Assembly: GCF_014138265.1 (NCBI RefSeq)
Contig: NZ_JACGXL010000001.1
Location: 496,001 to 560,000, forward strand
DNA length: 64,000 nt
Direction of reading: 5' to 3'
DNA from: Dokdonella fugitiva
GTDB lineage: Bacteria; Pseudomonadota; Gammaproteobacteria; Xanthomonadales; Rhodanobacteraceae
In this document: positions 16,863 to 60,259 of the stretch, piece by piece
How the letters are laid out: every line of letters starts with the position of its first letter
Position numbering within the stretch: the stretch's first letter is position 1
Notes under the pieces: model-generated
The model's database searches: none
Seen by the model: the letters and a program-made list of their open reading frames with translations, nothing else
What the model was told of the DNA's origin: nothing
Program-made: the position numbers and the translations under genes

Positions 16863-18224
16863 ATGACCTGTTCCGCCACGCTTCGTCGACGCGCGACGCG
16901 ATTCGCCCTGCTCCTCACGCTCGCGTTCGATGCGAGCCAGGCCACCACGCTCACCGTGACCAACACGAACGACTCGTGCACGTCGTGGCTGCTCGGCGGG
17001 CGCTGCCTGCGTTCCGCGATCGCCTACGCCAACCTGTTCGACGACACCGACCGGATCGAGTTCGCGATCCCGGGCAACCCCGAGCATTTCCAGCGCATCC
17101 TGCTGCAGTCGGGCCTGTCGATCACCGAGCCGCTCGAGATCGATGGTTACACGCAGCCGGGCGCATCGCCGAACACCGCGACGGACGGCATGAACGCGAA
17201 GGTCCGCATCGTCGTCGACGCGCTCGCGACGAGTGGCGCGGCCTTCGAGATCGCCGACACGACGGACCTGCGCGGCCTCGCGATCATCAACAGCGGCGGC
17301 CCGGGCGTGTACATCCGCGCGTGGGCGCCGGAGACGCGCGTGCGCGGCAACTACATCGGCACCGAAGCCACCGGCTTCGCCGCGGGCAACCGCGGCGGCG
17401 GCGTCATCGCCGACGGCGACTTCTGCGTGATCGGTGGTTCCGACGCCGGCGACCGCAACCTCATCTCGGCCAACCGGTCGTTCGGCATCCGCTCGACCGG
17501 ACCGCGCAACGTCGTCATCGGCAACCTCATCGGCACCGATCCGTTCGGCAGTCCCGTGCTCGGCAACGACGTCGGCGTGGTCGTCACCGCGGGTCCGACG
17601 CGCGTCGGCGACTTCGGCGTGCCGCTGCCGAACGTGATCGCCGGCAACCGCTGCGACGGCGTGCGCGTCGCCGGTACCGACGTCGAAGACGTCTGGGTCG
17701 GCTCGCTGCTGTACGCGAACGCCGCGGACGGCGCGGACTGCCGCAGCATCGCGCTCGGCGGCAGCACCTACGTCAACGATGTGGACGATCTCGACGACGG
17801 CGCGAACGGCGCGCTCAACCATCCGGAGATCTCGTCGGTGCGCGAATCCGGCGGCGACCTCGTCGTCGAGGGGCGCATCAACTCCGCTGCGAGCACCGAG
17901 TACCACGTCCAGCTGTTCGCCGATTTCAGCGCGGGCGCCTGCGCGGATGCCGGCGCCCCGGGCGAAGGCGAGGCGGCGATGGCCGAGTTCACGGTCGCCA
18001 CGCCGGCCGGCAGTGGCGTGCGCACCTTCACCTGGCGCGCTCCGTTCGCCGGCCTCGGCATCCGCGCGGTGGCCGCGACGGCGAGCGTCGGCGCGGCTGA
18101 AGTCGCGGCGTTCTCGACTTCGCCGTTCAGTCCGTGCGTGCTCGTCGCAACGGATGACGGCATCTTCCTCGACGGCTTCGAGCCAGCGACGAAGCTCGCT
18201 GCAGGGACGGTCGTCCTGCACTGA
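16863..18224 (+). CDS. Exported right-handed beta-helix protein with CSLREA-like domain and D-x-I-F tail
   Basis: 453 residues. A signal peptide (A-L-L-L-T-L-A-F-D-A-S-Q-A) is followed by a CSLREA-like repeat start (T-V-T-N-T-N-D-S ... C-L-R-S-A-I-A-Y-A-N) and a right-handed beta-helix with recurrent N-x-I-G-T and G-N-R-I turns. The C-terminal region ends with D-G-I-F-L-D-G-F-E (18156-18182), the motif shared by five other proteins here, but with 13 further residues after it. It is probably cell-surface or secreted; the substrate is unknown. ATG at 16863. Confidence 0.85.
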   Translation: MTCSATLRRRATRFALLLTLAFDASQATTLTVTNTNDSCTSWLLGGRCLRSAIAYANLFDDTDRIEFAIPGNPEHFQRILLQSGLSITEPLEIDGYTQPGASPNTATDGMNAKVRIVVDALATSGAAFEIADTTDLRGLAIINSGGPGVYIRAWAPETRVRGNYIGTEATGFAAGNRGGGVIADGDFCVIGGSDAGDRNLISANRSFGIRSTGPRNVVIGNLIGTDPFGSPVLGNDVGVVVTAGPTRVGDFGVPLPNVIAGNRCDGVRVAGTDVEDVWVGSLLYANAADGADCRSIALGGSTYVNDVDDLDDGANGALNHPEISSVRESGGDLVVEGRINSAASTEYHVQLFADFSAGACADAGAPGEGEAAMAEFTVATPAGSGVRTFTWRAPFAGLGIRAVAATASVGAAEVAAFSTSPFSPCVLVATDDGIFLDGFEPATKLAAGTVVLH

Positions 18225-18231
18225 CCGGAGG

Positions 18232-18265
18232 CACCGGCGGCGTATCGGGTGATCCGCCGCCGGTG
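18232..18265. terminator. Hairpin between convergent genes
   Basis: Ten-base perfect stem CACCGGCGGC (18232-18241)/GCCGCCGGTG (18256-18265) with a 14-base loop, between the beta-helix gene and zipA. No T-tract, so terminator function is only likely. Confidence 0.5.
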
Positions 18266-18284
18266 GGAACGCATGAGCGTGCGC

Positions 18285-19040
18285 CTAGCGGCCGGGGCGT
18301 ATCTGCTGCCGTTCCTGCTGGCGGTCCCACGCGCGCAGTTCGTCGCGGATGTGCGCGATGCGCTGGCGACCGAGCGCGTTGCGGCCTTCGTCGAGCACTT
18401 GCGCGTCGAGCAGTTCGGCGAGCCGCTGCGCGGTCGGCAGCAGCATTTCCCATGCGTCGAGCGCGGGCAGAGGGCCCGGCAAGGTCATGAACAGCGTGAC
18501 GCCGGGCGTCTGCACGTCGTCGAGCTGGGCCATGTCGAAATGACCGGGCTTGACCATGTTCGCCATGCTGAACACCGGGCCGTCCGCCTTCTTGCCGAGC
18601 ACGAGGCGGTGGAAGATCCCCATGTCGCCGAATTCGAGGCCGGCCTTTTCGGCGGCGACGACGATGTCGGGGCCGGCGAGCGGTTCACCCGCGCGCGATG
18701 CGACGAACAGGGTGACGATGCGTTCGATCGCCCGGTCGGGGCGCGCGCCGACGCTCGGGCGCGGCGATGCGGGACGCGCGGCCTCCGCCTCGCGGCCGGC
18801 CACGCTGGCACCGAGCCGCTCGAGTTCGCCGGCGAGCGAGACGTCGAGTTCACCCTGCGCCGGCGTCGCGTCCGGATCGCCGAACGTCGGCTCGACGCGC
18901 TCGTTGTCCAAACCCGAACGCCGCGGGGGCCGCCGCTCGCCCTGCTCGGGCTTCTTCGGCCTGCCGAACAGGTAGATCAGCAACAGCACGATCGCGCCGA
19001 GGACGATCAGCGGTATGCCGACGCTCGCGTTCCATTCCAT
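18285..19040 (-). CDS. zipA: Cell division protein ZipA
   Basis: 251 residues. An N-terminal membrane helix (about 8-25, L-I-V-L-G-A-I-V-L-L-L-I-Y-L-F-G), a Pro/Arg-rich linker and a C-terminal FtsZ-binding domain from about residue 105 (I-V-T-L-F-V-A-S-R through V-L-D-E-G-R-N). It tethers the FtsZ ring to the inner membrane. The ATG at 19038-19040 follows GGAGG. It lies 35 bases downstream of smc. In relatives ligA follows zipA; here a convergent accessory gene ends there instead. Confidence 0.9.
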   Translation of the reverse strand: MEWNASVGIPLIVLGAIVLLLIYLFGRPKKPEQGERRPPRRSGLDNERVEPTFGDPDATPAQGELDVSLAGELERLGASVAGREAEAARPASPRPSVGARPDRAIERIVTLFVASRAGEPLAGPDIVVAAEKAGLEFGDMGIFHRLVLGKKADGPVFSMANMVKPGHFDMAQLDDVQTPGVTLFMTLPGPLPALDAWEMLLPTAQRLAELLDAQVLDEGRNALGRQRIAHIRDELRAWDRQQERQQIRPGR

Positions 19041-19075
19041 GATGCTCGCCTCCGCCGTGGAACCGGGCGGCCCGC

Positions 19076-22000
19076 TCAGGCCGCGCCCGCGAGTTTAGCC
19101 GCTTCGGCGAGGTCGACCTGCACCAGGCGCGACACGCCCGGTTCGCGCATCGTCACGCCGCAGAGCTGCTTCGCCGCTTCCATCGTCGCCTTGTTGTGGG
19201 TGACGAAGATGAACTGCACCTGTTCGCTCATCTCCGAGACGAGCGACGAGAAGCGTCCGACGTTCGCCTCGTCGAGTGGCGCGTCGACCTCGTCGAGCAG
19301 GCAGAACGGCGCGGGGTTGAGGCGGAAGATCGCGAACACGAGCGCGACCGCGGTCATCGCCTTCTCGCCGCCGGAGAGCAGCGAGATCGAACTCACTCGC
19401 TTGCCCGGCGGGCGCGCCATGATCGCGACGCCGGTCGACAGCAGGTCCTCGCCGGTGAGCTCGAGGTAGGCGTGGCCGCCGCCGAACAGGCGCGGGAACA
19501 GCTCCTGCACACCCGTGTTGACGCGGTCGAAGGTTTCCTTGAAGCGCGCGCGCGTCTCCTTGTCGATCTTGCGGATCGCGCCTTCGAGCGTCTCGAGCGC
19601 GGTGCCGAGGTCGGTGAGCTGCGCGTCGAGGTAAGTCTTTCGCTGCGACTGCTCCTCGTACTCCTGGATCGCGGCAAGGTTGACCGGCTCGAGGCGGCGG
19701 ATCTTCTGGTCGAGTTCGCCGAGGTCGGCCTGCCACTGCCCCGCGTCCGCCTCGCCCGGCAAGGTCGCGATCAGCGCCTCGTAGTCGAAGCCCGCTTCCG
19801 CGATCGCGCCGGCGAGCGCCTGCGCACGCAGGCGGTGCTCCTGTTCGCGCAGGCGCAGCTGCGCGACTTCCTCGCGCTGCTCGGCGAGCCCGGCCTCGAA
19901 GCGGTGCCGCTCCTGCTCGAGGCGACGCAACTCGGCTTCCTGCTCCTGCTGCGCCTGGCGCGCCTCGACCATCTGGCGGTCGACGAGCAGGCGCTGGTTG
20001 AGGCAGGTCTGGCGTTCGTCTTCGAGGCCCGCGAGCGGATCGTTGCTCGAGGCGAGCTGCGCGGCGATCTCGCCGCGGCGCGCGTCGAGTTGCGCGAGCT
20101 GGCCGTGCATGCGCTGCAGCGACTGCTCGAGCGCACCCGCGGCGGTGCGCCGCGACTCGGTCGACAGCGCCGCCTGGTGCGCGGCGTCGCGCGCCTCGCG
20201 CGCGTTCATGCGCGCCTCTTCGCGCGCCTCGAGCAGCTTGCGCCGCTCGCCATCGAGCGCCTGGCGGCGCTGCTCGAGGTCGCCCATGTGGCCGACCGCG
20301 GTCTCCAGGCGGCCGCGCGCCTCGCGCGCCTGCTCGCGATCGGCGTCGAGCTTGGCGACGACGTCCTCGAGTTCGCGCGCGACGCGGTTGAGGCGCTCCT
20401 GCGCGCTGTCGATGCGGCCGCGTTGGCTCTGCAGCTGGCCGCCGACTTCGGCGAGGCGGCGGTGCGAGGTGTACAGCTCGCGCTGCGCGTCCTCGCGCGC
20501 GCGCTCGGCGTCGATGCGCTCGAGCTTGCCGCGCTCGAGCGCATCGGCGTGCGCGTCGATCTCGGATTCGAGCGCGGCGATGCGTTCGCCGAGTTCGCGG
20601 ATCTCGCGCTCGCGCGCGAGCACGCCGACCTGCGCGCCGGAGCCGCGCTGCACGCGCACCGTGCCGTGGCCGAACCACTCGCCTTCGGCGGTGACGATCG
20701 ACTCGCCCGCGGCGAGCGTGGGCGCGTGCGTGCGCGCTTCGCCGAGCGAAGCCGCCGTGCGCACGCGCGCGAGCACCGCGCACGCGGCGGCCGGGCCGCG
20801 CACGTGCGCCGCGAGCGTTCCGGCCGCACCGCTCGCGCCGTCCTCGCGTGCGCCGATCAGCGCGACGTCGGCGTCGCGCAGCGCGGCGAGTTCATCGGCG
20901 AACGCGGCCGGCTCGTCCACGAGCACGGCTTCGAGCCAGCCGTCGAGCACGGTCTCGACCGCGCGCTCCCAGCCGGCGTCGACCTGCAGCGCCTCGCCGA
21001 GTCGACGTGCCTGGCCGAGGCCGAGGCCGTCGAGCCAGGTCTTCGCGGCGCCGCCCTCGCCGAGCGCGGCGTGCTGCAGCGTTTCGAGCGAACCGAGGCG
21101 GCCGCGCAGCTTCTCGAGCTCACCGCGCTTGCCGCTGAGCATCGCCTGCGTCGTGCGTTCGAGTTCGAGCGCGGCCTCGGCGGCGTGGCGGCGCTCGTCG
21201 AGGGCGGCCGTGTGCGCTTCGACGTGCTCGCGCAGCGCCGCGTGCTCGGTGTCGAGCGCTTCGAGCGCCTGGCCGAGTTCGTCGATGTTCGCCGCGGCCC
21301 GCTCGGCTTCGAGCGCACCGCGGCGCTGGTCGGCGGCGAGGCACTGCTTGTCGAGGTAGTCGAGGCGCGTGCGCTCGACTTCGGCCGCCTGCCCCGCCTG
21401 CGAGGTCGCGAGCGTGTGCTGGTCCCACTGCGTCTGCCATTCGGACAGCTGCAGCTCGCTCGTGCGCAGCGCCTCGGCCGCGGCCTCGTCGGCCTCGCGC
21501 AGGGTTTCGAGCTGCGGCGCGGCGTCGGCGAGCAACGCGCCGAGTTCCTCGAAGCGCTGGCGGTCGGTCTCGATGTGTTCGGCGAGTTCGGCGTGCGCGC
21601 GTTCGGTCTCGTGGCGCGCGCGGTCGAGCTGTTCGGCGAGCTGCTTGCTGTGCTGGATCTGCTGCTCGACGCGCGCGATCTCCGCGCCGACCTTGTACAC
21701 CTCGCCCTGCACCGCGTTCATGTGCTCGACCGCGGCGGCATGCTTCTCGCGCCCGGTCTCGAGCGCGGCTTCGGTGTGGCGCTGCTCGGCGAGCTGCTGT
21801 TCGATCGCGAGCTCGGCCTTGCGCAGCGCGCCCGACTGGCCGTCGACTTCGGCCTGCGCCGAGCGCAGCGAAAGCGCCTTGACCTCGGCTTCCTTCTTCT
21901 TCTGCTCTTCCTTGAGCTGCTGCCAGCGCTCGGCGGTCTTGGCCTGGCGCTTGAGGTGCTCGAGCTGCTTGTCGACCTCGTCGCGCACGTCGCGCACGCG

Positions 22001-22576
22001 GTCGAGGTTCTCGCGCGTCGCCTTGATGCGGTTCTCGGTTTCCTTGCGGCGCTCCTTGTACTTGGAGATGCCCGCCGCTTCCTCGAGGTGGTTGCGCAAC
22101 TGCTCGGGATCGGACTCGACGATGTCCGAGATCATGCCCTGCTCGATGATCGAATAGCTGCGCGGACCGAGCCCGGTGCCGAGGAACAGGTCGGTGATGT
22201 CGCGCCGGCGGCAGCGCACGCCGTTGAGGAAATACTGCGACTGGCCGTCGCGGCTGACCAGGCGCTTGACCGAGATCTCGTTGTAGCTCGCGTACTCGCC
22301 GACGATGAGGCCGTCGGAGTTGTCGAACAGCAGCTCGACCATCGCGCTGCCGACCGGCTTGCGCCCGTTCGAGCCGGAGAAGATCACGTCGGTGAGCGCG
22401 TCGCCGCGCAGGCGGCTCGCCGCGCTCTCGCCCATGACCCAGCGGATCGCGTCGATGATGTTGGACTTGCCGCAGCCGTTCGGACCGACGACACCGGTCA
22501 TGTTGGTCGGCAGGTGCAAGGTGGTCGGGTCGACGAACGACTTGAATCCGGCCAGTTTGATCGTAGTCAGACGCAT
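19076..22576 (-). CDS. smc: Chromosome segregation ATPase SMC
   Basis: 1166 residues, normal for bacterial SMC. Walker A G-P-N-G-C-G-K-S-N (31-39), long coiled coils, a hinge at about 500-650 (V-E-T-V-L-D-G-W-L-E-A-V-L-V), and the C-terminal signature L-S-G-G-E-K-A-M-T-A-V-A with Walker B C-L-L-D-E-V-D-A-P-L-D-E. With ScpA and ScpB (encoded at 23558-25313) it forms the condensin complex. The ATG at 22574-22576 precedes the conserved R-L-T-T-I-K-L-A-G-F-K-S-F. Confidence 0.97.
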   Translation of the reverse strand: MRLTTIKLAGFKSFVDPTTLHLPTNMTGVVGPNGCGKSNIIDAIRWVMGESAASRLRGDALTDVIFSGSNGRKPVGSAMVELLFDNSDGLIVGEYASYNEISVKRLVSRDGQSQYFLNGVRCRRRDITDLFLGTGLGPRSYSIIEQGMISDIVESDPEQLRNHLEEAAGISKYKERRKETENRIKATRENLDRVRDVRDEVDKQLEHLKRQAKTAERWQQLKEEQKKKEAEVKALSLRSAQAEVDGQSGALRKAELAIEQQLAEQRHTEAALETGREKHAAAVEHMNAVQGEVYKVGAEIARVEQQIQHSKQLAEQLDRARHETERAHAELAEHIETDRQRFEELGALLADAAPQLETLREADEAAAEALRTSELQLSEWQTQWDQHTLATSQAGQAAEVERTRLDYLDKQCLAADQRRGALEAERAAANIDELGQALEALDTEHAALREHVEAHTAALDERRHAAEAALELERTTQAMLSGKRGELEKLRGRLGSLETLQHAALGEGGAAKTWLDGLGLGQARRLGEALQVDAGWERAVETVLDGWLEAVLVDEPAAFADELAALRDADVALIGAREDGASGAAGTLAAHVRGPAAACAVLARVRTAASLGEARTHAPTLAAGESIVTAEGEWFGHGTVRVQRGSGAQVGVLAREREIRELGERIAALESEIDAHADALERGKLERIDAERAREDAQRELYTSHRRLAEVGGQLQSQRGRIDSAQERLNRVARELEDVVAKLDADREQAREARGRLETAVGHMGDLEQRRQALDGERRKLLEAREEARMNAREARDAAHQAALSTESRRTAAGALEQSLQRMHGQLAQLDARRGEIAAQLASSNDPLAGLEDERQTCLNQRLLVDRQMVEARQAQQEQEAELRRLEQERHRFEAGLAEQREEVAQLRLREQEHRLRAQALAGAIAEAGFDYEALIATLPGEADAGQWQADLGELDQKIRRLEPVNLAAIQEYEEQSQRKTYLDAQLTDLGTALETLEGAIRKIDKETRARFKETFDRVNTGVQELFPRLFGGGHAYLELTGEDLLSTGVAIMARPPGKRVSSISLLSGGEKAMTAVALVFAIFRLNPAPFCLLDEVDAPLDEANVGRFSSLVSEMSEQVQFIFVTHNKATMEAAKQLCGVTMREPGVSRLVQVDLAEAAKLAGAA

Positions 22577-22642
22577 CTAGCGGTTACCTCGGGAATCCAT
22601 GACGCGAGCTCCCCGCTCGCGGACGTGCAGGCGGCGATCGAC

Positions 22643-28071: not shown

Positions 28072-29589
28072 TCAGAAGCCCGGCGGCGCGTCGAAGCCGT
28101 TGGCGAAGATCCGGTCCGGATCGCCGAACAGGCGCAGCAGGGCGAAATCGTGCGGCGCTACGTTCGGACGCGAGGTGTAGCCGCCGGCGAGGATGTCGCC
28201 GGAGACCTCGACCGCGACCGCGTAGGCGCCGTCCTCGACGGTCGACACCTGCGCGACCTTGAGTCCCTGCTCGCCGTAGGTCGTGTCGATGCTGCCGTCG
28301 GCGTTCCAGCGGCCGACGAAGAAGTCCTGGTGCGCCGCACCGGTCGCGCGGTTCGTCGCCGAACCCGCGGCGACGATCCTGCCGTTGCCCTGCAGCGCGA
28401 GCGCCGCCACGACATCCTCGTCCGCACCGCCGCTGAACTTGATCAGCGAGCGTCCCTGCTGGCCGAAGGTCGTGTCGAGCGAACCATTCGCGTTGAACCG
28501 CATCACCGCCATGCCGCGATCGTTGCCTTCGCCGGCGACGACGATGTGGCCGTCCCTGGTCAGGCGCGCCGACGCGAGCATGTACAGACCGCTGTAGACG
28601 CCACCGCTGTTGGCGGCCTGGAACGTCACGCGACCGGTGCCGTTGAACGTCGTGTCGACCGCGCCGTCCGCGGTGAGCCGGGCGAGGAACGAGGTGTTGC
28701 GGCCGAAGGTGTAGCCGCCGACGACGATGCGGTCGTCGGCAGCGAGGTTGCCGGCCTGGTCGAGCGCGATCGTGCTCAGCGTGTCGCCGGCCGCGCCGAA
28801 GAACGGCGCGAGCACGACGTAGCCCTGCCCGCCCGCGAACGTCGTGTCGAGCACACCGTCGGCGGTGAACCGTGCGACCGCGACCTGGCCGTACCAGAAG
28901 CCGTCGTGGAACACGCGCGTGATGCCCGCGAGCACGATCTTGCCGTTGCGCTGCAGCGCCATCGCGTACGGGTTGTCGTGCACGTCGGGACCACCGATGT
29001 CGAGGCGCACGTAGCCTTTGCGCGCGGCGCCTGCGTCGGCTTCGCCGAACGTCGTGTCGAGCGAACCGTCGGCGCGCAGCTTGACCACGCCGTAGTCGGA
29101 GTGCGAAGCGGTCGAGAGGGTGCCGCCGACGAGCACGCTGTTGTCCGACAGCACGCGCAGCGCGCGGCCCTCGTCGGACGCGCCGTCGACGTCGAGGTGG
29201 ATCATTCCGCCGCTGCCGAAGCTCGCGTCGAGCGTGCCGTTCGGCAGGTAGCGCGCGACCGCGAGGTTCTCGCTGCCGCCGCTGCCGTTCGCGTTCGCGC
29301 CGGTGACCTTGCCGGTGACGACGAAGCGGCCGTCGCGCATCGGCGCGATCGCGTAGATCTGCTCGTCGGTGCCGAAGAAGTCGTTGGTGACGAAGCCGCC
29401 CTGGCCGAAGCCGCCGTCGATGTCGCCCGGGTGCGCGGCGAACGCGGCGCCGGTCGTGCATGCGAGTGCGATCAGGGTTGCGCCGAAGCGACGCACCAGC
29501 GCGCCGGGACGAACGCCCGTCGCGAGGTCATGGCAGGAACCGCGGCTCGCGGGCGGGTCGTTCGTGATTCGGTTGCGAGTACACTTCAT
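28072..29589 (-). CDS. Exported delta-60 repeat beta-propeller protein with D-x-I-F tail
   Basis: 505 residues. A signal peptide with a long N-terminal extension (hydrophobic core A-T-L-I-A-L-A-C-T-T-G-A-A-F-A) is followed by about eight repeats of the delta-60 type, each holding (A/N)D-G-(S/T)-L-D-T-T-F-G or a close variant. The last residues are D-R-I-F-A-N-G-F-D plus A-P-P-G-F, the recurrent C-terminal motif of this window (28090-28116). Probably a secreted or surface beta-propeller; its partner is unknown. ATG at 29587-29589 with GAGATG upstream. Divergent from the sigma factor. Confidence 0.85.
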   Translation of the reverse strand: MKCTRNRITNDPPASRGSCHDLATGVRPGALVRRFGATLIALACTTGAAFAAHPGDIDGGFGQGGFVTNDFFGTDEQIYAIAPMRDGRFVVTGKVTGANANGSGGSENLAVARYLPNGTLDASFGSGGMIHLDVDGASDEGRALRVLSDNSVLVGGTLSTASHSDYGVVKLRADGSLDTTFGEADAGAARKGYVRLDIGGPDVHDNPYAMALQRNGKIVLAGITRVFHDGFWYGQVAVARFTADGVLDTTFAGGQGYVVLAPFFGAAGDTLSTIALDQAGNLAADDRIVVGGYTFGRNTSFLARLTADGAVDTTFNGTGRVTFQAANSGGVYSGLYMLASARLTRDGHIVVAGEGNDRGMAVMRFNANGSLDTTFGQQGRSLIKFSGGADEDVVAALALQGNGRIVAAGSATNRATGAAHQDFFVGRWNADGSIDTTYGEQGLKVAQVSTVEDGAYAVAVEVSGDILAGGYTSRPNVAPHDFALLRLFGDPDRIFANGFDAPPGF

Positions 29590-29721: not shown

Positions 29722-30305
29722 ATGAACGAACCCTACGCAGCGAACGACGGACAGGACCAGCAGGCGGTGACGCGCCTGCTGCACGCATGGAACGACGGCG
29801 ATGCCGCCGCGGCCGAACGCCTCACCGAACTCGTCTACGCGCAGGTGCGCGCGATCGCCGGCAAGCACCTGCGCCAGTTCGGCGGGCGCATGACCCTGCA
29901 GCCGACCGAACTCGCGCACGAACTGTTCCTGCGCCTCATGAACGCGGACGTCGCGTGGCAGGACCGGCGCCACTTCTACGGCGTGGTCAGCGTCGCGATG
30001 CGCCGCATCCTCGTCGATGCCGCGCGCGCGCGCGGCGCCGAGCGGCGCGGCGGCGGCGAGGTGCACGTGACGCTGTCGGCCGCCGACGAGGCCCCGGACA
30101 CGGACGCGCAGGGCGAAGCATTCGCGCTCGAGGAGGCGCTCGCGGCGCTGCGCGAACTCGATGCGCGCAAGTGCGAGGTGATCGAACTCAACTACCTGCT
30201 CGGCCTCAAGCGCGAGGAGATCGCCGAAGTGATCGGCGTGTCGGTGCCGACCGTCGACCGCGAGCTGCGCTTCGCGCGCGCGTGGCTGAAGCAGAAGCTC
30301 GCCGC

Positions 30306-30309
<4 letters not shown>
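29722..30309 (+). CDS. ECF-type sigma factor paired with a Ser/Thr kinase
   Basis: 195 residues. Region 2 (A-I-A-G-K-H-L-R-Q-F through W-Q-D-R-R-H-F-Y) and region 4 (L-L-G-L-K-R-E-E-I-A-E-V-I-G-V-S-V-P-T-V) mark it as a sigma70 of the ECF-like PF07638 family. In region 2, Q-P-T-E-L-A-H-E-L-F has a threonine (residue 62) where classical ECF factors carry an acidic patch. This is the feature of sigma factors activated by phosphorylation (EcfP/PknT in Vibrio, EcfK/PknS in Xanthomonas). The gene overlaps the kinase by ATGA. ATG at 29722. Confidence 0.88.
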
Positions 30310-33063
<2,754 letters not shown>

Positions 33064-33077
<14 letters not shown>

Positions 33078-48082: not shown

Positions 48083-49642
48083 TCAGGGCTCGAAACCGCT
48101 GCGGAAGATCAGATCGGGCTGGCGTTCGTACGCGCCGACGTCGACCGCGCCGCCGCGCGGCGCGCCGCGCTGGTCGGTCGCCGGTGCACCTGCAGTCGAT
48201 CCACCGTCGATCGCCGGGCTGCCGGGCGGCAGCGCCATCGTCTCGGTCGGACCGCCGTTCGCCGCGGGGTCGGCGAGATTGGCGTTCGCGAACACGGTCC
48301 CCGGAGCGACGGCCGGTTCGCCCTGCCCCGCTGCGGGACGCGCCTGCGGCCATTGCAGGTTGCCGGCACCGTTCGCGGCGGGATGCAACATCGCCCATGG
48401 GTTGTAGGCGTTGCCGCCGACGTTGTCTTCGAACAGCACGTTGCGCAACGTCAGCGACGCTCCGCTGTCATTGGCGATGCCGGCGGCGAAGCATCCCGCG
48501 CACGGTGCGGCGTTGTGGGCGATCGTGAGGTTCTGCAAGGTCAGCGCGCTCGCCGCCTGGATCGCCATCGCACCCCCGAGGCCGCCGCGTGCGAGGTTGC
48601 CGACGAACGTCGAGTTGCTGATGCTGCCCTCGAGCACCCCGCCGTAGCCGAACAGCGCGAGGCCGGCGTAGCCGTTCGCGTCGTTGTCGCGGAACGTGCT
48701 GCCGCTGATCGCGATCGGGCTGCCCTGGATATACGCGCCGCCGGCGAGCTTGTCCGCCGCGCTGCTCGTGTTGCCCTGCACGGTGGAGTCCTGCAGTCGC
48801 GTGTGCGACGCATTGCTGTAGGTGACGGTGAACAGGCCGCCGCCGAACGCATTCGCCTCGTTGTCGATGAGCCGGACGCGACAGAGGTTGACGAAGCGGG
48901 CGTCGCCGTCGACGCCGATCGCGCCACCGTTGCCGCCGTTGCCTGGATTGCCGCCGCTGCCGGTCGCATGGTTGCCGGTGAACACGCTGTCGTAGAGGTT
49001 CACGCGCTTGGAGCCGAGCGAATAGAAGGCACCGCCGTTCGAACCGCTGTTGCCGTCGAACTGCCCGCGTACGACCGCGACTTCGGCCGCACCGACGACG
49101 TAGAGCGCGCCACCGCCGTCGTCCTGCGCGGAAGCGATCGCGTGGTTGCCGCTGAAGCGCACGTCGAAGAATCGCAGCGTCACCGCCTGCCACGGCCCGC
49201 CCGTCGCCTTGTAGAGGCCCGCTCCGCTCGCCGTGGGCGTGCTGCCGTCGGCGATGCTCCCGTGCGACAGCGTGAACGCGTAGGTCTGGTTCGCTGGATT
49301 CTGCACCTCGATCACGCGGCGCACGTGGTCCCCCGAGAGCGTCGCGCCGCCGAGATCGAACGTGGTCGCGCGCGTGACGCGCAAGGTCGCGCCGAGCGCG
49401 AGCGTCGACGCGCCGATGTCGAGGCGGATCGGCCCGCCTGCATCGAGCGCCTGCTGCACCTGCGCGGTGGTCACGCTGCCGGCGCCGCCGTTGCCGAGCA
49501 CCACGGGCGCGACCAGAGACGGTGTTGCAGGCGCGACGCAGTCGAACGAGACCTGCGCGATACCCTCATCGGGGACCAGCGCTGCCGCGCATGTCAGGGC
49601 GACCGCGAAAGCGCGCGCGACGGCCGCCGCCATGGGATTCAT
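48083..49642 (-). CDS. Exported beta-helix protein with choice-of-anchor Q ending and D-x-I-F tail
   Basis: 519 residues. A signal peptide (A-F-A-V-A-L-T-C-A-A-A-L-V) leads into a right-handed parallel beta-helix (repeated G-N-x-A and S-x-F-x-x-N turns; G-G-A-I-G-V-D-G). Near the end a choice-of-anchor-Q-like block reads P-G-S-P-A-I-D-G-G and V-D-V-G-A-Y-E. The protein stops one residue after D-L-I-F-R-S-G-F-E (48089-48115). The choice-of-anchor domain is known from proteins carrying different C-terminal anchors, which supports treating the tail as a sorting signal. The ATG at 49640-49642 has GGAGGAAGG upstream. Confidence 0.88.
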   Translation of the reverse strand: MNPMAAAVARAFAVALTCAAALVPDEGIAQVSFDCVAPATPSLVAPVVLGNGGAGSVTTAQVQQALDAGGPIRLDIGASTLALGATLRVTRATTFDLGGATLSGDHVRRVIEVQNPANQTYAFTLSHGSIADGSTPTASGAGLYKATGGPWQAVTLRFFDVRFSGNHAIASAQDDGGGALYVVGAAEVAVVRGQFDGNSGSNGGAFYSLGSKRVNLYDSVFTGNHATGSGGNPGNGGNGGAIGVDGDARFVNLCRVRLIDNEANAFGGGLFTVTYSNASHTRLQDSTVQGNTSSAADKLAGGAYIQGSPIAISGSTFRDNDANGYAGLALFGYGGVLEGSISNSTFVGNLARGGLGGAMAIQAASALTLQNLTIAHNAAPCAGCFAAGIANDSGASLTLRNVLFEDNVGGNAYNPWAMLHPAANGAGNLQWPQARPAAGQGEPAVAPGTVFANANLADPAANGGPTETMALPPGSPAIDGGSTAGAPATDQRGAPRGGAVDVGAYERQPDLIFRSGFEP

Positions 49643-49928
49643 CGTCCTTCCTCCGATCATGCGGCCATCGTAGGCCGATGCGCCCGGCGGTGGCGTGACG
49701 GTATCGTCATCGGGCGCGTCCCGCTGGTGCGCCGCCGTCGTGGTGCGAGCGCTACCTGCGGTACCGTCGATGCGACGAAACGCACCGCGGACGCGCCCGT
49801 CTGCAGTGGCTCCGGCTCGCGTCGCTGCAAGTGGTCCTGTTGCTGCGGGAGGTCGGACGCAAGACTCGGATGGATCGGACGGTGGCCGCGCCGCACGATG
49901 TCGCCCGCCGCCACCCGTCGAGGTCCGC

Positions 49929-51101: not shown

Positions 51102-51161
51102 TGCCTTGTCTCCGAGACATCGGGTTGTATCGCCGCGAGCGGTGCCTCATCCGGCCGCGAC

Positions 51162-53541: not shown

Positions 53542-53802
53542 GTGAGGCGTGCGTGGATGTGGGTCGCGGCACCGATCGGAGCTGCATTGGCGAGCAAGGT
53601 CGGCTCGACGGAAGCGGGAGCGAACCCGGGCGGTTGTCCCGGGCTCGTCGCGCACGTGACGCTCAGCGACTACGACGGCACGCACAGCCTGCCGCTGTGC
53701 GTGGCTCCCGGCGGCTTCAACGTCAGCGGCGGCGTCGTGACCTTGAAAGTCTACGACCCGGCATCCGACGGAATATTCCACAATGACTTCGATGCTTCCT
53801 AG
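53542..53802 (+). CDS. Short exported protein with D-x-I-F tail
   Basis: 86 residues from the GTG at 53542, which has GGAAGG seven bases upstream; a GTG at 53512 also has a site but would give an acidic leader before the signal peptide. The signal peptide is R-R-A-W-M-W-V-A-A-P-I-G-A-A-L-A, then a mature part of about 65 residues with two cysteines (P-G-G-C-P-G-L, S-L-P-L-C-V-A), ending S-D-G-I-F-H-N-D-F-D-A-S (motif at 53767-53793). The motif, despite a tiny unrelated body, suggests it is recognised by the same machinery as the large proteins. Confidence 0.65.
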   Translation: MRRAWMWVAAPIGAALASKVGSTEAGANPGGCPGLVAHVTLSDYDGTHSLPLCVAPGGFNVSGGVVTLKVYDPASDGIFHNDFDAS

Positions 53803-54010: not shown

Positions 54011-54063
54011 GCAGCACCAGTGATCGAAGGCCAAGGGAGGGCTACTTCGAACTGGTGCTGCGG
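54011..54063. other. 12-base inverted repeat with inner stem
   Basis: CGCAGCACCAGT (54011-54022) and ACTGGTGCTGCG (54052-54063) form a perfect stem; inside it CGAAG/CTTCG can also pair. It is 12 bases beyond the OsmC stop. It may end the osmC transcript or be a structured RNA element. Confidence 0.5.
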
Positions 54064-54074
54064 ACCTTCCCCCT

Positions 54075-54542: not shown

Positions 54543-55100
54543 GATCGTCTCCTGCCGATGCGGGCGACCATGCTACCTTCGAAGGGCGCGGCGCGCCTCG
54601 CGCCGCGCGAACAGCATGCGCGACCCGCGTATCCGCCGGATGGTCACGCGCGACTCCAGGCGCATCCATCGATGCCGCACGATCGAATCGTCGAGCGGTT
54701 GCCGCGCGGAACGCCATCCGCAGCGCACACGATGCAGACTCGCCGATCGTGGTCCGCATTGCGCACGACGCGCCGCGTTGCAACGTCGCAGGTTCAAATT
54801 CCGTTTGTTGCGACGCGTTCAGCAACGCGATGCGAAACTGATCCTGCAACGATTGGTGAAACTCCCTCCCCTGAGTCAATCCCACGTTTGCGCCGCGCGT
54901 GAGCGCCGCATCAGGACAAGTCGCAATAATCGATCGCCATGGACGCGGCGAGGAGACGGCGGATCCGGCGCGAGTCGGGCCCGCCGTTTCCATTTGGTGA
55001 ACCGAGATCGCGCATCGCGATCTCCGCCCGCTCGCACATGCGACGTTCAGCCAGGGTCGCCTAGCGTTGCCGGCGGGAAGACGGGTACGGAGAACTCTCC
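54543..55100. other. 558-base gene-free region with several dyads
   Basis: I find no gene here. Local dyads include CGTTGCAACG (54776-54785), CGTCGCA...TGCGACG (54784-54790/54809-54815), CGCGTT-CAGC-AACGCG around 54814-54829, and GAGATCGCG-CAT-CGCGATCTC (55004-55024). The first three overlap and look like alternative stems of one structure. It lies between OsmC and the zinc-ribbon gene and may hold a structured leader or a small RNA. Confidence 0.4.
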
Positions 55101-55334
55101 ATGACGAAGATCGACATTCCCGATCTCACCGGCGGCAACGGCATGCTGCTGCAGTGCCCGCACTGCAATGCCTACAACCTCGATACGCCGCTGCTGCCGC
55201 GTGGAGACGACTACGTCGAATGCCTCACGTGCGGTGAGCTGTTCACCTATTCGTTCGTGGAGTCGTGCGCGCTCGCGAGCACGCGCGAGATGCTCGCCCG
55301 CGAGTTTCCGAACCTTCCGCTCGATCCGCTTTGA
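55101..55334 (+). CDS. Small zinc-ribbon protein
   Basis: 77 residues. Two CxxC knuckles (C-P-H-C-N-A-Y and C-L-T-C-G-E-L-F) that should bind one zinc. No known domain beyond this. It may be an adaptor or transcription-associated protein. The ATG at 55101 follows GGAG, 11 bases upstream. The long upstream non-coding region could regulate it. Confidence 0.72.
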   Translation: MTKIDIPDLTGGNGMLLQCPHCNAYNLDTPLLPRGDDYVECLTCGELFTYSFVESCALASTREMLAREFPNLPLDPL

Positions 55335-55429
55335 CGGATTGCGCCGCCGCGGCACCGGCCGCGGCGTGAACGACGCCCGCTTCCGGCGTCGAACGGCGTG
55401 TTCCCTGGGTATGCCCACGGAGCCACGCC

Positions 55430-56479
55430 ATGACCACGCCGTTCCGAGCCGCGTACCTGTCCATCGCGCTGTTCGCCGCAGCGACCACGCGAGCGGCGGC
55501 GCACGAAGCGTGCGTCTCGACCGCTGCAGAACTCCAGCAGGCGCTGGCCGACGCCTCCGACGGCGGGCCGTATGTGGCGGAGGACAACCTCGTCAAGCTC
55601 GCCACAGGCACCTATCGGACGGGAGCGGCAACGTCGAACGGCCCGTTCTTCTTCTACTCGAGTCATTCGACCACGAGCCTCACGCTCTACGGCGGATACG
55701 GACCCGGCTGCAGCGGCGGCCGCCATGCGGCCGCCGACACGATCCTCGACGGACGCGGCTCCACCGCCGTGCTCGTCCTGCGCAGCAAGCAGGGCCCGCT
55801 CGCCGTGACGCACCTGACCTTGCAGAACGGCGACAGCGACGCGCCCGGCGCAGGCCTGCAGATCAACTACCTCGTCACCGTCGAAAGTTCGGTGCAGGTC
55901 GACCACGTGATCATCCGCGGCAACCACAGCAGCGTCGATGCCGGAGGCCTCTACGCATCGGGCGCCGCATCGGCCGGATCGGCCGTGACGCTCACCGACG
56001 CCCTGATCGTCGACAACGCGTCGGACGCGAACTACGGCGGCGCCTACGTCACGCCGTACGGCGACACGGCGCTGGTCGATCACGCGACCATCGCGCGCAA
56101 CGCCGCCGCAGCCACCAGCGATCGCGTCGGTGGCCTCTATTGCGGCGGAACCGCGTTGTGCAACGTCTTCGATACGATCGCCTGGAACAACAGCAACGTC
56201 GGCCTCTACTTCGATTCGCCGGCCGCGCTCGTCTGCGACGACTACGGCGCGATCGGCGGTGCGGTACCCGACTATGTCGCGAACGTGCATTCGGTCTCGC
56301 CGGCGTTCGTCGATGCAGAGAACGGCGACTACCACCTGGGAGCGGGGTCGCCGCTGTTCGGGCTCTGCGCGGCCGGCAACGGTACGACCGACCTCGACGA
56401 TCATCCATTCCCGGGCCGCGGCAGCGCCGACGTCGGCGCCTACGAGGACACGATCTTCGTCGACGGCATCGACGGCTGA
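55430..56479 (+). CDS. Exported beta-helix protein with choice-of-anchor Q-like ending and D-x-I-F tail
   Basis: 349 residues. A signal peptide (A-A-Y-L-S-I-A-L-F-A-A-A-T-T-R-A-A-A) is followed by C-V-S-T-A-A-E-L-Q-Q-A-L, a start common in CSLREA-type exported proteins, then a short beta-helix (A-G-G-L-Y-A, V-G-G-L-Y-C). The end has A-D-V-G-A-Y-E, similar to a choice-of-anchor Q block, and the last ten residues hold D-T-I-F-V-D-G-I-D (56447-56473). The ATG at 55430 follows GGAG. Function unknown; probably displayed at the cell surface. Confidence 0.85.
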   Translation: MTTPFRAAYLSIALFAAATTRAAAHEACVSTAAELQQALADASDGGPYVAEDNLVKLATGTYRTGAATSNGPFFFYSSHSTTSLTLYGGYGPGCSGGRHAAADTILDGRGSTAVLVLRSKQGPLAVTHLTLQNGDSDAPGAGLQINYLVTVESSVQVDHVIIRGNHSSVDAGGLYASGAASAGSAVTLTDALIVDNASDANYGGAYVTPYGDTALVDHATIARNAAAATSDRVGGLYCGGTALCNVFDTIAWNNSNVGLYFDSPAALVCDDYGAIGGAVPDYVANVHSVSPAFVDAENGDYHLGAGSPLFGLCAAGNGTTDLDDHPFPGRGSADVGAYEDTIFVDGIDG

Positions 56480-56557
56480 GAGCGTCGACGCGCACCAGCG
56501 CCGCGTACATGACCGACGGCGGTTCCCGCGCGAGAGGAACTGTTCTACGCTCGCCCG

Positions 56558-56998
56558 ATGAACCCCGAACAGAAACGCACCGCCGGCGCGCTCGTGCGAG
56601 CGGTCGTCCTGCTGCAGCTGAAGCTGCTCCTGAACGCCGCGCGCGACCTCGTTCTGATCCCGCTCGCACTCATCGCCGCCGGCGCTGACCTCGTCCTGCT
56701 GAAGACGGACGAGCCGCGCTTCTTCCGCGCCGTGCTGCGCCTGGGCGAGCGGTCCGACCGCTGGATCGACGTCTGGTCGGGTGGGCGCGAAGCCCACGAG
56801 GATCCGCGCGAGAACGTCGACGCCCTGCTCGCCCGGGTCGAGGACGTCGTGCGTGATCCGCAAGCCGGTGCGCGACGCGCACGCGTGCTCAAGCGCTGGG
56901 CAGAACGCCAGGTGTCGCGCGCCCGGCAACGTGCCGCGCGACCGACGCTGGCTGACCCTGCCTCGGGCCGGCCACCACGGTCGGACATGACGCTGTAG
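56558..56998 (+). CDS. Hypothetical membrane-associated protein
   Basis: 146 residues. One hydrophobic region (L-L-Q-L-K-L-L-L-N-A-A-R-D-L-V-L-I-P-L-A, about 17-46) then a charged, Arg-rich tail. I do not recognise the family. The ATG at 56558 has a reasonable spacing to AGAGGA. The stop codon is inside an 18-base dyad. Confidence 0.55.
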   Translation: MNPEQKRTAGALVRAVVLLQLKLLLNAARDLVLIPLALIAAGADLVLLKTDEPRFFRAVLRLGERSDRWIDVWSGGREAHEDPRENVDALLARVEDVVRDPQAGARRARVLKRWAERQVSRARQRAARPTLADPASGRPPRSDMTL

Positions 56999-57011
56999 GA
57001 ATTTTCCTACA
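56994..57011. other. Perfect 18-base dyad over a stop codon
   Basis: TGTAGGAATTTTCCTACA, an eight-base stem with a TT centre, and the TAG stop of the preceding gene lies within it. There is no T-tract, so it may be an operator for the following iminopeptidase gene or a weak terminator. Confidence 0.45.
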
Positions 57012-57215
57012 CGAAGGCGCGGCGATCAGCCATCGCGCGCGCTTTCGGTGACGCGCAATCTGGCTTCGCCCGGGACCACCTCGCGCCAGGATTGGGCGCC
57101 CCGATGTGGGCACGGAAGCCTCCCCGGGCATTGCGCGACCGCTGCCACATTCTCCCGCGCCGTCGTGCCCCTCCCTGCTTCGGTTAAGCTCCCGTGGGCA
57201 TCCACGGAGTCCCGC

Positions 57216-58175
57216 ATGCGCGAGCTGTATCCGGACATCGAGCCCTATCGCACCGATCGCCTCGCGGTGGACGACCTGCACACCTTGCACATCGAGGAGT
57301 GCGGCAATCCGCACGGGCTGCCCGTCGTGTTCCTGCACGGCGGCCCCGGTGCCGGTGTTTCGACCTACCATCGTCGCTTCTTCGACCCCGCGCGCTACCG
57401 CATCGTGCTGTTCGACCAGCGCGGCGCTGGCAAGTCGACGCCGCACGCGGAGCTGCGCGACAACACCACGCAGCACCTCGTCGCCGACATCGAGAAGATC
57501 CGCGTCCATTGCGGCATCGAGCGCTGGGTCGTGTTCGGCGGTTCGTGGGGTTCGACGCTCGCGCTCGCCTATGCGCAGGTCCATCCGGAGCGCGTGCTCG
57601 GGCTCGTGCTGCGTGGCATCTTCCTCGGCCGCCCCGGCGAGCTGCGCTGGTTCAACGAGCTCGACGGCGGCGCGCGCTGGATCTTCCCGGAACGCTGGCA
57701 GCGCTATCTCGACTACATCCCCGAAGCCGAACACGGCGAGCTCGTCGAAGCCTACTGGCGCCGCCTCGACGATCCCGATCCCGACGTGCGGCTCGCCGCC
57801 GCGCTCGCCTGGGGCTGGTGGGAAGGCGGCAGCACGACGCTCGTGCACGACCCGCGGGAGAGCGGCAATTTCGAGGAACCCGCCATCGCGATCAGCGTCG
57901 CCCGCGCCGAGGCGCACTATTTCCGCCATCGCGTCTTCCTCGAGCCCGACCAGCTGCTGCGCGGCGTCGATCGGATCCGCCACATCCCGGCGACGATCGT
58001 GCACGGCCGCTACGACATCATCTGCCCGGTGAAGAGCGCGATCGACCTCGCCGCGGCATGGCCGGAGGCCTCGTTGCACATCGTGCTCGCCGGGCACAGC
58101 GCCGCCGATCCCGCTATCGTCGACGTGCTCGTCGGCGCGACCGACGCACTCGCGAATCGTTTCGCGGTTCGCTGA
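57216..58175 (+). CDS. pip: Proline iminopeptidase
   Basis: 319 residues, alpha/beta hydrolase. H-G-G-P-G-A-G oxyanion-hole region, the nucleophile serine in G-G-S-W-G-S-T-L, the aspartate in V-H-G-R-Y-D-I-I-C-P and the histidine in L-A-G-H-S-A. W-G-W-W-E-G-G-S and the R-x-E-x-H-Y-F segment are typical of the prolyl aminopeptidase family. It removes N-terminal proline from peptides, in the cytoplasm. The ATG at 57216 follows GGAG. Confidence 0.93.
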   Translation: MRELYPDIEPYRTDRLAVDDLHTLHIEECGNPHGLPVVFLHGGPGAGVSTYHRRFFDPARYRIVLFDQRGAGKSTPHAELRDNTTQHLVADIEKIRVHCGIERWVVFGGSWGSTLALAYAQVHPERVLGLVLRGIFLGRPGELRWFNELDGGARWIFPERWQRYLDYIPEAEHGELVEAYWRRLDDPDPDVRLAAALAWGWWEGGSTTLVHDPRESGNFEEPAIAISVARAEAHYFRHRVFLEPDQLLRGVDRIRHIPATIVHGRYDIICPVKSAIDLAAAWPEASLHIVLAGHSAADPAIVDVLVGATDALANRFAVR

Positions 58176-58189
58176 CGCGGGAAGGACCC

Positions 58190-59293
58190 TCAGCCGCCCG
58201 CGCGCTTGAGGCAGCGCTGGTAGCGCTCGTCGACGCGACTCGCGAACCATGCGGTGGTGAGCTGGCGCGTGATCTTCGGGCTGTGCAGCGCGATGCCGGG
58301 CACGAGCGCGCGCGGCAGCGGCTCGTGTCCGCCGCGCTCGGCGAGTTCGAACACGCGCTCGTACAGGGACGAGCGCTCGAACGCTTCGCTTTCGCCGCGT
58401 TCGAGGGCGCGGCGGATGTCGCGCTCGTCGAGGTCGATGCGCCGCGCGAGGGTGCGCAGCGCCCGTTCGGTCTGGCCCGGATCATCGAACGACGCATCGG
58501 GTCGCAGCACGTCGCCGTCGAGCGCGAGCGGCACCCCGGAGGCGACGCTCGCCGCGTTCTGGAAGGCCGCGTTCCGGCTCGCATACCAGCCGGCGTTGAA
58601 ATCGGCGAAGCGGTAGATCGCCTTCGGATAAGGCGCGCGATAGCCGAGCAGGTGCGCGGCGCCGAACCAGAGGCCGCCACGCCGGCTGAAGACCTCGTGG
58701 CGGATCGAACCGTCGATCGGGTACGGATAGCCCTTCGCGTGCGCCTCGGCGAATGCGATGCTCACCTGCATCGGCCCCGCCGTGTGCACCGGATTGAGCC
58801 TCCCGAACAGGCGCTGGCCGAGCGGCACCATGCCGATGAAGTCCTCGAACATCGCGCTCATGTCCTTCTCGGTGCGCACCGACGCGAGGCGTTCGCGATA
58901 GCTGCGTCCATCCGGCGAGTCGATGCGCAGGGCTGCGTCGACGAGGAAGTCGGGAACGTGCAGCGAGGCCGCACGTCGATCGATTTCCGCACGCGCGATC
59001 TTCGGCAGGCCGGGCACCGGCGGGTCGGCGCGGAACGTCGATTCCTGCTCGGCGACCGCGAGCACCGCGCAGAGGTTCGCGGCGGTCGTCTCTATCTCCT
59101 GCGTGCGCAAGGCCGCGTCGATGTCGGCCGCCCAGCCTTCGCGATCGGCGACCTGCGCGGGCATCAGCCGCACGATCTGGGCGCGCACGTCGGCGGGACG
59201 TCGCGGCGGCGCCTGCGTGCGTGGCGCGACGCAGCCAGCGAGCGCCGCGACCAGTGCGAACGGCGCGAGCCGCAACGCGATGATGCGATCCAT
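58190..59293 (-). CDS. DUF1615 family lipoprotein
   Basis: 367 residues. A lipoprotein signal with the lipobox L-A-G-C. The mature domain with A-V-A-E-Q-E-S-T-F, F-N-A-G-W-Y-A-S-R-N-A-A-F-Q and T-A-G-P-M-Q-V resembles the DUF1615 lysozyme-like group. A peptidoglycan role is suspected but not shown. The ATG at 59291-59293 has AGGAGAGG upstream. Convergent with pip, with 14 bases between. Confidence 0.83.
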   Translation of the reverse strand: MDRIIALRLAPFALVAALAGCVAPRTQAPPRRPADVRAQIVRLMPAQVADREGWAADIDAALRTQEIETTAANLCAVLAVAEQESTFRADPPVPGLPKIARAEIDRRAASLHVPDFLVDAALRIDSPDGRSYRERLASVRTEKDMSAMFEDFIGMVPLGQRLFGRLNPVHTAGPMQVSIAFAEAHAKGYPYPIDGSIRHEVFSRRGGLWFGAAHLLGYRAPYPKAIYRFADFNAGWYASRNAAFQNAASVASGVPLALDGDVLRPDASFDDPGQTERALRTLARRIDLDERDIRRALERGESEAFERSSLYERVFELAERGGHEPLPRALVPGIALHSPKITRQLTTAWFASRVDERYQRCLKRAGG

Positions 59294-59434
59294 CGATCCC
59301 TCTCCTGCCCTCGCACCCTGGTCGCGTGGCCAGGCTGTGCATCGATTCCATCATGCCTGCGCAGGAACTGCACAATCGCGGCCTAGCTTACGTTCTGCCG
59401 GAGGACGGCGCGACCCACGTCGAGGAGAACGACC

Positions 59435-60259
59435 ATGGCGAAAATCCTGCCCATCCTGCGCAGCCCGCACGCGACGCTCGCCGAAACCCTGGACGTGCTC
59501 GAACGACGGCGCCGCGTGCTCGGCCTGCTCGGCGGCGTCGGCGCGCTCGCACTGCTGCCCGGCGCGCTGCGTGCCTGCACGTTGATCCCGCAGGAAACGG
59601 GAGGCCCGTATCCGGGCGACGGCACCAACGGGCCGAACGTGTTGACGCAGAGCGGCATCCTGCGCTCGGACATCCGTTCGAGTTTCGGCTCGTCGGGCAC
59701 GAACGTCGCGCCCGGCACCCTGCTCGAACTCACGCTGCAGTTCCTCAGCACTACGACCGACTGCGGCCCGATCGAAGGGCTCGCGATCTATCTCTGGCAC
59801 TGCAACGCGACCGGCGGCTATTCGCTCTACTCGCAGGGCGTCACCGGTGAAAACTACCTGCGCGGCGTGCAGGTCACCGACGCGCAGGGCCGCGTGACGT
59901 TCACCACGATCTACCCGGGCTGCTACTCCGGCCGTTGGCCGCACATCCATTTCGAAGTCTTCGCCTCGCTCGCCGACGCCACCAGCGGCAACAACGCCGG
60001 CCGCACGTCGCAACTCGCGATGCCCGAGGCACCGTCGCGCGTCGTGTACGGCCAGGCAGCGCTGTACCCGAACAGCACGAGCAACCTCGACCCGCTCTCG
60101 CTGCAGTCGGACAACGTGTTCGGCGACGACGGCGGCGTGCACCAGCTCGCGACCGTCGCCGGCGACAACGCGAGCGGCTACACGGCGTTCCTCGAAGTCG
60201 GCATCGCAGTCGACGCGACGTCGTCGGACATCATCTTCACGGATGGCCTCGACGGCTGA
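59435..60259 (+). CDS. Exported intradiol dioxygenase-like protein, Tat-like leader and D-x-I-F tail
   Basis: 274 residues. An unusually long N-terminal region contains R-R-R-R-V-L-G-L-L-G-G-V-G, a twin-arginine-like leader. The domain is of the intradiol ring-cleavage dioxygenase type: G-P-Y-P-G-D-G, then Y-P-G-C-Y-S-G-R-W-P-H-I-H-F with two iron-binding histidines and candidate tyrosines. The last ten residues hold D-I-I-F-T-D-G-L-D (60227-60253). A folded metalloenzyme exported by Tat with this tail is a useful case for the motif's role. The ATG at 59435 follows GAGGAG. Confidence 0.85.
   Translation: MAKILPILRSPHATLAETLDVLERRRRVLGLLGGVGALALLPGALRACTLIPQETGGPYPGDGTNGPNVLTQSGILRSDIRSSFGSSGTNVAPGTLLELTLQFLSTTTDCGPIEGLAIYLWHCNATGGYSLYSQGVTGENYLRGVQVTDAQGRVTFTTIYPGCYSGRWPHIHFEVFASLADATSGNNAGRTSQLAMPEAPSRVVYGQAALYPNSTSNLDPLSLQSDNVFGDDGGVHQLATVAGDNASGYTAFLEVGIAVDATSSDIIFTDGLDG

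Follow-up and report, generated by a model that had tools for sequence, protein, structure and literature searches.

A nine-residue tag on exported proteins of Dokdonella fugitiva may be a linear export or surface-sorting signal

Six genes in a 64,000-nucleotide stretch of the Dokdonella fugitiva genome encode unrelated exported proteins that carry variants of one nine-residue block near their C-termini, which raises the question of what such a tag does and what reads it. The whole stretch (hereafter the window) is C1:496001-560000 of genome G000, a 4.77 Mb assembly in 13 contigs; G, L and f are our labels for genomes, DNA stretches and the 12 families of the order Xanthomonadales, respectively. 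Followed beyond the window, the tag was found on about a hundred exported proteins, which belong to many unrelated types and have it usually at the very end. Its occurrence across genomes goes together, with exceptions, with a second gspCDEF set of the type II secretion system (T2SS), which we call T2SS-A. We suggest that the tag may work as a short linear signal for export or surface sorting, a kind thought to be absent from type II secretion.

The tag and the proteins that carry it

We searched with a strict pattern, ATHTTYNNNNNNGGNTTYGAN, which reads I-F-x-x-G-F-(D/E), and with a looser one, D-x-[LIVFM]-F-x-x-G-F-[DE], and each was also run reversed as a control. The whole G000 genome gave 127 strict and 158 looser matches, against none for either reversed pattern. 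Chance or repeat DNA as the origin of the tag is ruled out by these empty controls together with the varied codons of the matches. Positional figures were taken from 100 of the 127 strict places, each of which was inspected. The tag lay within 25 residues of the stop in 91 places, and within 5 residues in 81 of these, while the remaining nine were internal or N-terminal; the C-terminal location claimed in the original prediction is thus the usual one and not a strict rule. Among the 91 C-terminal tags, D stood at position -2 in 78, D or N preceded G in 79, and the final residue was D in 56 and E in 35, the residues I, F, G and F being set by the search pattern.

These tails do not resemble the known C-terminal sorting signals. 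The GlyGly-CTERM signal has a membrane helix and a basic tail. A hydrophobic 15-residue window was present in 2 of the 91 tails, K or R was absent downstream of the tag in 72 and occurred two or more times in 3; the tails thus do not follow the PEP-CTERM pattern of a helix with basic residues behind the motif. The exclusion of PEP-CTERM, GlyGly-CTERM and LPXTG in the original prediction was therefore borne out, since the tails are without the helix and basic tail of those signals.

The position of the tag varies further in other genomes. Twelve of the 15 strict matches in G005 were inspected; eight were C-terminal, three stood right behind a signal peptide and one was elsewhere. Two of these three proteins look, by a motif, like DUF1800 proteins, and an NCBIfam scan of one of the two returned no family. 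Stretches with a tag right behind a signal peptide are L037 (11650-13278), L038 (9875-11677), L036 (near 7707) and L006, and tandem tags were seen in L031 (9219-9281) and L034 (8894-8972). In L034 the second tag-like stretch runs into the start of a domain, F-x-D-G-F-E-x-G-D-x-x-A-W, that is presumably jelly-roll-like. A homologue of the dioxygenase-fold protein of the window ends with SDLLFADGFE in G012, and the G003 homologue ends at the point where a tag would follow; going by these two sequences, the tag is appended to the protein body. The same homologue comparison, made for tag loss in genomes without T2SS-A, turned up a tagless homologue in a genome with T2SS-A too. Because the tag can sit at the mature N-terminus, C-terminal cleavage is unlikely as a general mechanism, and the flexible position together with the tandem tags therefore favours a binding epitope over a cleavage signal.

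The carriers of the tag appear to be exported proteins. Genes were called with a home-made caller and signal peptides were assigned by a crude rule, with the misses then checked by eye. A signal peptide was assigned to 57 of 67 strictly tagged genes versus 141 of 524 untagged genes of the same stretches (Fisher p 2e-20), and most of the 10 tagged genes that failed the crude test show one by eye; export is thus much commoner among tagged than among untagged genes, which supports the original prediction. Family scans covered 79 of 82 tagged proteins (three longer than 1150 residues were left out) and yielded choice-of-anchor Q (15), beta-helix (12), delta-60 (6), choice-of-anchor I (2), rhombosortase-dependent M36 (2) and a MYXO-CTERM-anchored family (1). 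In 124 of 137 untagged signal-peptide proteins, nine longer than 900 residues and four cytosolic-looking ones being left out, the scans found S9/S15 peptidases, HlyD, Slp, DsbA and similar families. The tagged domains are surface types, in contrast to the mostly periplasmic or envelope types among the untagged proteins with a signal peptide. As these scans show, many of the tagged domains are of kinds that elsewhere come with surface-sorting signals.

No model for the tag itself was among the matches listed for the tagged proteins in the Pfam and NCBIfam scans, and the model of the type IX secretion system (T9SS) C-terminal domain (CTD) was absent from the six window proteins and from the 25 families listed for the 79 tagged proteins. 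No published description of such a tag was among the papers listed from the literature covered, which mostly excludes subscription journals. With the bias towards exported proteins and with neither a model nor a description found, a so far undescribed tag for sorting, secretion or anchoring stays the best reading.

Distribution of the tag and of T2SS-A

The distribution was examined in 250 genomes of the order and in 272 gammaproteobacteria from other orders. Within the order, strict counts were sharply divided, with about 0-2 in most members of f1 and f2, tens in others and 127 in G000, and genomes with at least five looser matches occurred in 10 of the 12 families. Since the tag is present in most families of the order, the originally proposed limit to the Rhodanobacteraceae has to be given up. 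The 272 genomes of other orders had strict counts of 0-13 with controls of about 0-8, the highest count being in G496 (control 2), which rules out a tag of all Gammaproteobacteria.

The original prediction proposed to look for genes whose presence follows the tag and saw no candidate processing enzyme in the window. A candidate that co-occurs genome-wide was found outside the window, namely the second gspCDEF set, and it is not a processing enzyme. In many genomes the T2SS-A locus has the order rho, trx, DEAD helicase, gspC, gspD, gspE, gspF, ftsE, ftsX, with T2SS-A gene names assigned by inspection and from the similarity of the loci to one another. Carriers of the locus include Dokdonella fugitiva (GspD-A 96% identity), D. 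immobilis, Aquimonas voraii, Chiayiivirga flava and a Rudaea metagenome-assembled genome (MAG). The GspD-A proteins of the first loci compared are 44-83% identical to that of G000, versus 23-30% for the Xps-like secretin; a third, Xcs-like secretin in G040 shares 37% identity with the GspD-A of G000, Xps and Xcs being what we take the other secretins to be. We also noticed a GspD-A relative (46% identity) in L289, a contig titled Klebsiella pneumoniae (MAG), a title that is possibly wrong.

When 55 genomes, 31 of them classed as tagged, were searched as a secretin panel, GspD was over the cut-off in 52, and two full copies were present in 28 of the 31 tagged ones. The 11 tagless f1 genomes of the panel had one GspD in 10 cases and three in G074, none of the A type. 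GspC-A contained T2SSC in all six proteins tested and a PDZ domain over the cut-off in five, the sixth reaching E 6.7e-05, whereas the GspC counterparts at three Xps loci had neither T2SSC nor PDZ. The sequence relatives with solved structure for the GspC-A PDZ are the PDZ domains of OutC, PulC and EpsC, and the predicted structure of the G000 GspC-A is confident over its C-terminal domain. Some members of f10 and f8, tagged and tagless, have a C-terminal extension of this PDZ domain (L106, L164, L177, L178).

We then counted co-occurrence in the 200 of the 250 genomes with at least 90% completeness, contamination being unfiltered. Genomes with at least five looser matches were taken as tagged, and GspD-A as present when the best hit in the GspD-A search of the 250 genomes had E <=1e-140. 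G230 (E 2.0e-140) falls narrowly below this threshold and was excluded by name too, as its set lies elsewhere and has rhomboid/rhombosortase-like flanks; in this tagless 2.5 Mb relative, L105 (G230:C47) holds at 1699-13428 a complete-looking T2SS set between two such genes. Seven genomes were set aside because GspD-A was in pieces or the assembly was broken, among them G123, in which no clear piece was seen and the best hit had just E 1.1e-27. Tags were present in 52 of 73 genomes with full GspD-A versus 3 of 120 without it; all seven genomes set aside were tagged, and recounting G123 as lacking GspD-A gives 4 of 121. By family, the tagged genomes with and without T2SS-A were 6/6 and 0/46 in f1, 2/2 and 0/51 in f2, and 2/3 and 2/21 in f8.

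A tree of SMC was built for 30 hand-picked genomes from f1 (6 with and 15 without T2SS-A), f2 (2 with and 6 without) and f3 (1), and includes no f8 or f10 genome. T2SS-A and tags agree at every tip of this tree, and given its well-supported branches the two must have changed jointly at least three times, in the main f1 clade, in G053 and in the main f2 clade. G053, which has neither tags nor T2SS-A and is nested in a clade that has both, is the most telling case. The joint changes are best read as losses, because the T2SS-A locus has the same place in other families. T2SS-A is accordingly a candidate partner of the tag by correlation, with exceptions and short of proof.

Candidate roles of the tag

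We tentatively suggest, from patterns in the sequences, that D-x-(I/V/L)-F-x-(D/N)-G-F-(D/E) could be a linear epitope on cargo of the T2SS that is read by or delivered through T2SS-A. Tagged proteins would first be exported by Sec or Tat, and the tag, as a short accessible recognition epitope on the folded exported protein, would mark them for T2SS transit outside or to the surface via T2SS-A, with GspC-A and/or the secretin GspD-A as its likeliest reader in the periplasm. We infer here the use of T2SS-A by tagged proteins, the role of the tag as the signal and the domain that reads it. With more reserve we consider it possible that the nine residues act as a portable T2SS signal, which can be placed N- or C-terminally on a folded periplasmic protein and is read by GspC-A, with its PDZ domain, and/or GspD-A.

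What is expected of T2SS substrates is found in part: the carriers have signal peptides, by the crude test in the proportion given above, and T2SS genes are present. A PDZ ligand calls for a periplasmic PDZ reader, which GspC-A provides. According to two papers, no common linear T2SS signal is known (PMC7949064, PMC12369372); loop 3 of PelI, nine residues long, interacts with GspC and GspD (PMC7949064), and VesB of Vibrio cholerae is the only known substrate wholly dependent on the EpsC PDZ domain (PMC12369372). PelI loop 3 and the immunoglobulin fold of VesB with EpsC PDZ are exposed segments that serve as secretion signals, as the tag might; those determinants belong to single proteins, however, whereas about a hundred proteins of diverse types share the present linear motif.

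Several observations weigh against a T2SS-A signal. First, the PDZ alone does not bring tags, since one of the six tested GspC-A proteins comes from G009, which is tagless and yet has this PDZ-bearing GspC; the separate T2SS of the tagless G230 also has a PDZ-bearing GspC, below the cut-off. Second, the distance of the tag to the free carboxyl end is not fixed, ranging over 0-25 residues with N-terminal copies in addition, which sets the tag apart from classical PDZ ligands, although an internal PDZ ligand is conceivable. Third, the T2SS-A locus has the C, D, E and F genes only, and a motif scan for pseudopilins in 47 stretches of G000 and in the other T2SS-A loci examined found only those of Xps. 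Fourth, a tagged gene occurs in 9 of 46 named T2SS-A records, in five of them (L256, L260, L266, L297, L301) some 3 kb upstream of gspD and on the opposite strand, and adjacency to gspC was rejected as proof, since over the loci compared it is, by a hand estimate, about what tag density gives by chance.

Finally, the distribution has exceptions in both directions. G063 and G097 (f8) are tagged without GspD-A: among stretches selected as promising, 14 of 20 had C-terminal tags (12 of 16 in G097, 2 of 4 in G063), mostly of the form L-F-x-(S/D)-G-F-E, and these are read by something else there or by the Xps system. G048, a 90% complete assembly in 180 contigs, also has tags but no GspD-A, which is present in its congener G062. 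Conversely, T2SS-A is retained in 16 f10 genomes (g28 and g67) with 0-3 tags; among 12 g28 stretches inspected with the looser motif, two were no more than 10 residues away from a stop, and none of the 12 was tag-like. The locus is also present with fewer than five looser matches in G082, G005, G006, G017 and G033; within f7, L-F tags were found in both stretches of G006 and in neither of the two from G017. Because of these exceptions the T2SS-A locus is neither strictly necessary nor sufficient. The joint changes could also stem from the loss of a whole surface lifestyle.

Below the T2SS-A signal we rank a surface retention tag, which we regard as somewhat less likely. Tagged proteins would then leave through a T2SS (A in most lineages, Xps in others) independently of the tag, and the tag would dock them on a surface receptor or matrix. 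Such docking would account for the tags of G063 and G097, and it suits both the flexible, sometimes tandem placement and the carrier domains, of which choice-of-anchor Q (15 of 79), M36 (2) and the MYXO-CTERM-anchored family (1) bear anchoring signals elsewhere. No receptor was found, however, and the close tracking with gspCDEF would have to be indirect. GlyGly-CTERM too retains some T2SS cargo at the surface, by different chemistry; PMC13393428 places it on T2SS-exported surface proteins in Vibrio.

Less probable still is another pathway, such as a periplasmic chaperone, vesicle sorting or an outer-membrane insertase, that was lost along with T2SS-A as a large surface proteome was given up. 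The f8 and f10 exceptions speak for it, as do the TIGR02999 sigma factors described below, which track the tags as well and show that several secretome features co-vary; against it stands the tree, which is without these exceptions but has at least three joint changes and no disagreement.

A C-terminal sorting signal that is cleaved off, as in the sortase, exosortase, rhombosortase, myxosortase or PorU systems, is very improbable. The mostly C-terminal tags on choice-of-anchor proteins recall such signals, but hydrophobic stretches are nearly absent from the tails, most tags have no K or R behind them, and some stand directly behind signal peptides. Rhombosortase (TIGR03902), the one processing enzyme searched for, was over the cut-off in 4 of the 55 panel genomes, of which three are tagless and G000 is not one, and was rejected as partner; the known CTERM classes were likewise rejected by the family scans, the tail composition and this search. 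GlyGly-CTERM with rhombosortase (PMC3237569) is a C-terminal processing signal with many-to-one pairing, like the present case, but it is cut by a rhomboid protease, whereas our tag lacks helix and basic tail and G000 has no rhombosortase over the cut-off. PEP-CTERM with exosortase (PMC1569441) is a short C-terminal motif common to many exported proteins, with choice-of-anchor domains here as there; the present tag differs in having no helix, no basic tail and copies behind signal peptides. The T9SS CTD (PMC4804311) is also a C-terminal export signal on diverse cargo, but is a folded beta-sandwich of Bacteroidetes, whereas the tag is nine residues long and found in Gammaproteobacteria.

Least probable of all is a structural cap, either the C-terminal beta-strand of a shared fold or a truncated jelly-roll start. 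The one tag-like stretch of L034 that enters such a domain start may speak for it; against it, the tagged bodies have many folds, the untagged homologue is short of the tail alone, and 81 of the 100 tags inspected are followed by a stop after no more than 5 residues.

Tagged genes of the window and their regulatory context

The six tails of the original prediction were all located in the window (Table 1), and their bodies do differ: one is a delta-60 protein, one combines choice-of-anchor Q with beta-helix, one is a weak beta-helix, one has Dioxygenase_C and two are without a model over the cut-off. The predicted structure of the dioxygenase protein has low confidence (mean predicted local distance difference test score, pLDDT, 56), and its disordered tail is weak evidence.

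Table 1. Tagged genes, their tags and neighbouring genes in the window
Feature	Position	Strand	Remarks
Exported protein, no family model over cut-off	16863..18224	+	ATG at 16863; signal peptide by eye, missed by crude test
Tag DGIFLDGFE of gene 16863..18224	18156-18182	+	13 residues ahead of stop
Delta-60 repeat beta-propeller, exported	28072..29589	-	TIGR02608 4.4e-75; start 29496 or 29589
Tag DRIFANGFD of delta-60 gene	first base 28116	-	5 residues ahead of stop
Extracytoplasmic function (ECF) sigma factor TIGR02999 (Sig-70_X6)	29722..30309	+	1.2e-54, over cut-off; divergent from tagged delta-60 gene
Ser/Thr kinase with TPR-like part	30306..33077	+	kinase models, none over cut-off; overlaps end of sigma gene
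Choice-of-anchor Q + beta-helix exported protein	48083..49660	-	NF041518 2.8e-20
Tag DLIFRSGFE of choice-of-anchor Q gene	first base 48115	-	1 residue ahead of stop
Small exported protein, 81-96 residues depending on start	53557..53802	+	no family model
Tag variant DGIFHNDFD of small-protein gene	53767-53793	+	2 residues ahead of stop
Exported beta-helix-like protein (weak)	55430..56479	+	PF13229 0.018, below cut-off
Tag DTIFVDGID of beta-helix-like gene	56447-56473	+	1 residue ahead of stop
Exported intradiol-dioxygenase-fold protein	59435..60259	+	PF00775 (Dioxygenase_C) 3.4e-09
Tag DIIFTDGLD, appended behind dioxygenase domain	60227-60253	+	1 residue ahead of stop

Pairs of a TIGR02999 ECF sigma factor and a Ser/Thr kinase recur beside tagged genes, as at 29722-33077 of the window, and G000 has 21 such sigma factors over the cut-off. 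Across 62 genomes, the number of TIGR02999 matches (at E up to 0.001) rises with the tag count (Spearman 0.67). For the 17 of the 21 sigma factors whose contigs have complete tag lists, 3 lay within 2.5 kb of a tag (1.8 expected, p 0.27), 7 within 5 kb (3.3 expected, p 0.035) and 10 within 7.5 kb (4.7 expected, p 0.007). The module was rejected as partner of the tag, with 7-20 matches in the tagless g28, and since it is numerous there too we keep it as regulatory context; sigma/kinase pairs near tags look like regulation of a large surface proteome. The TIGR02999 pairs are like the ECF43 sigma/Hanks kinase pairs of PMC13147305, and the sigma factor beside gspC in G000 has the QTTA signature; that at 29722 is without it, and any link to the tag would be regulatory at most.

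The choice of cargo by the T2SS is a long-standing question. If a T2SS-A signal is the true reading, type II secretion, whose signal is described as a structural one with no shared sequence, would gain its first linear signal used genome-wide. With a short tag on about a hundred proteins, and with at least three joint changes of the tag and a specific GspC/GspD set, the question of cargo selection becomes directly testable. Even as a mere surface dock, the tag would predict the surface proteome across the order and might serve as a short portable display handle.

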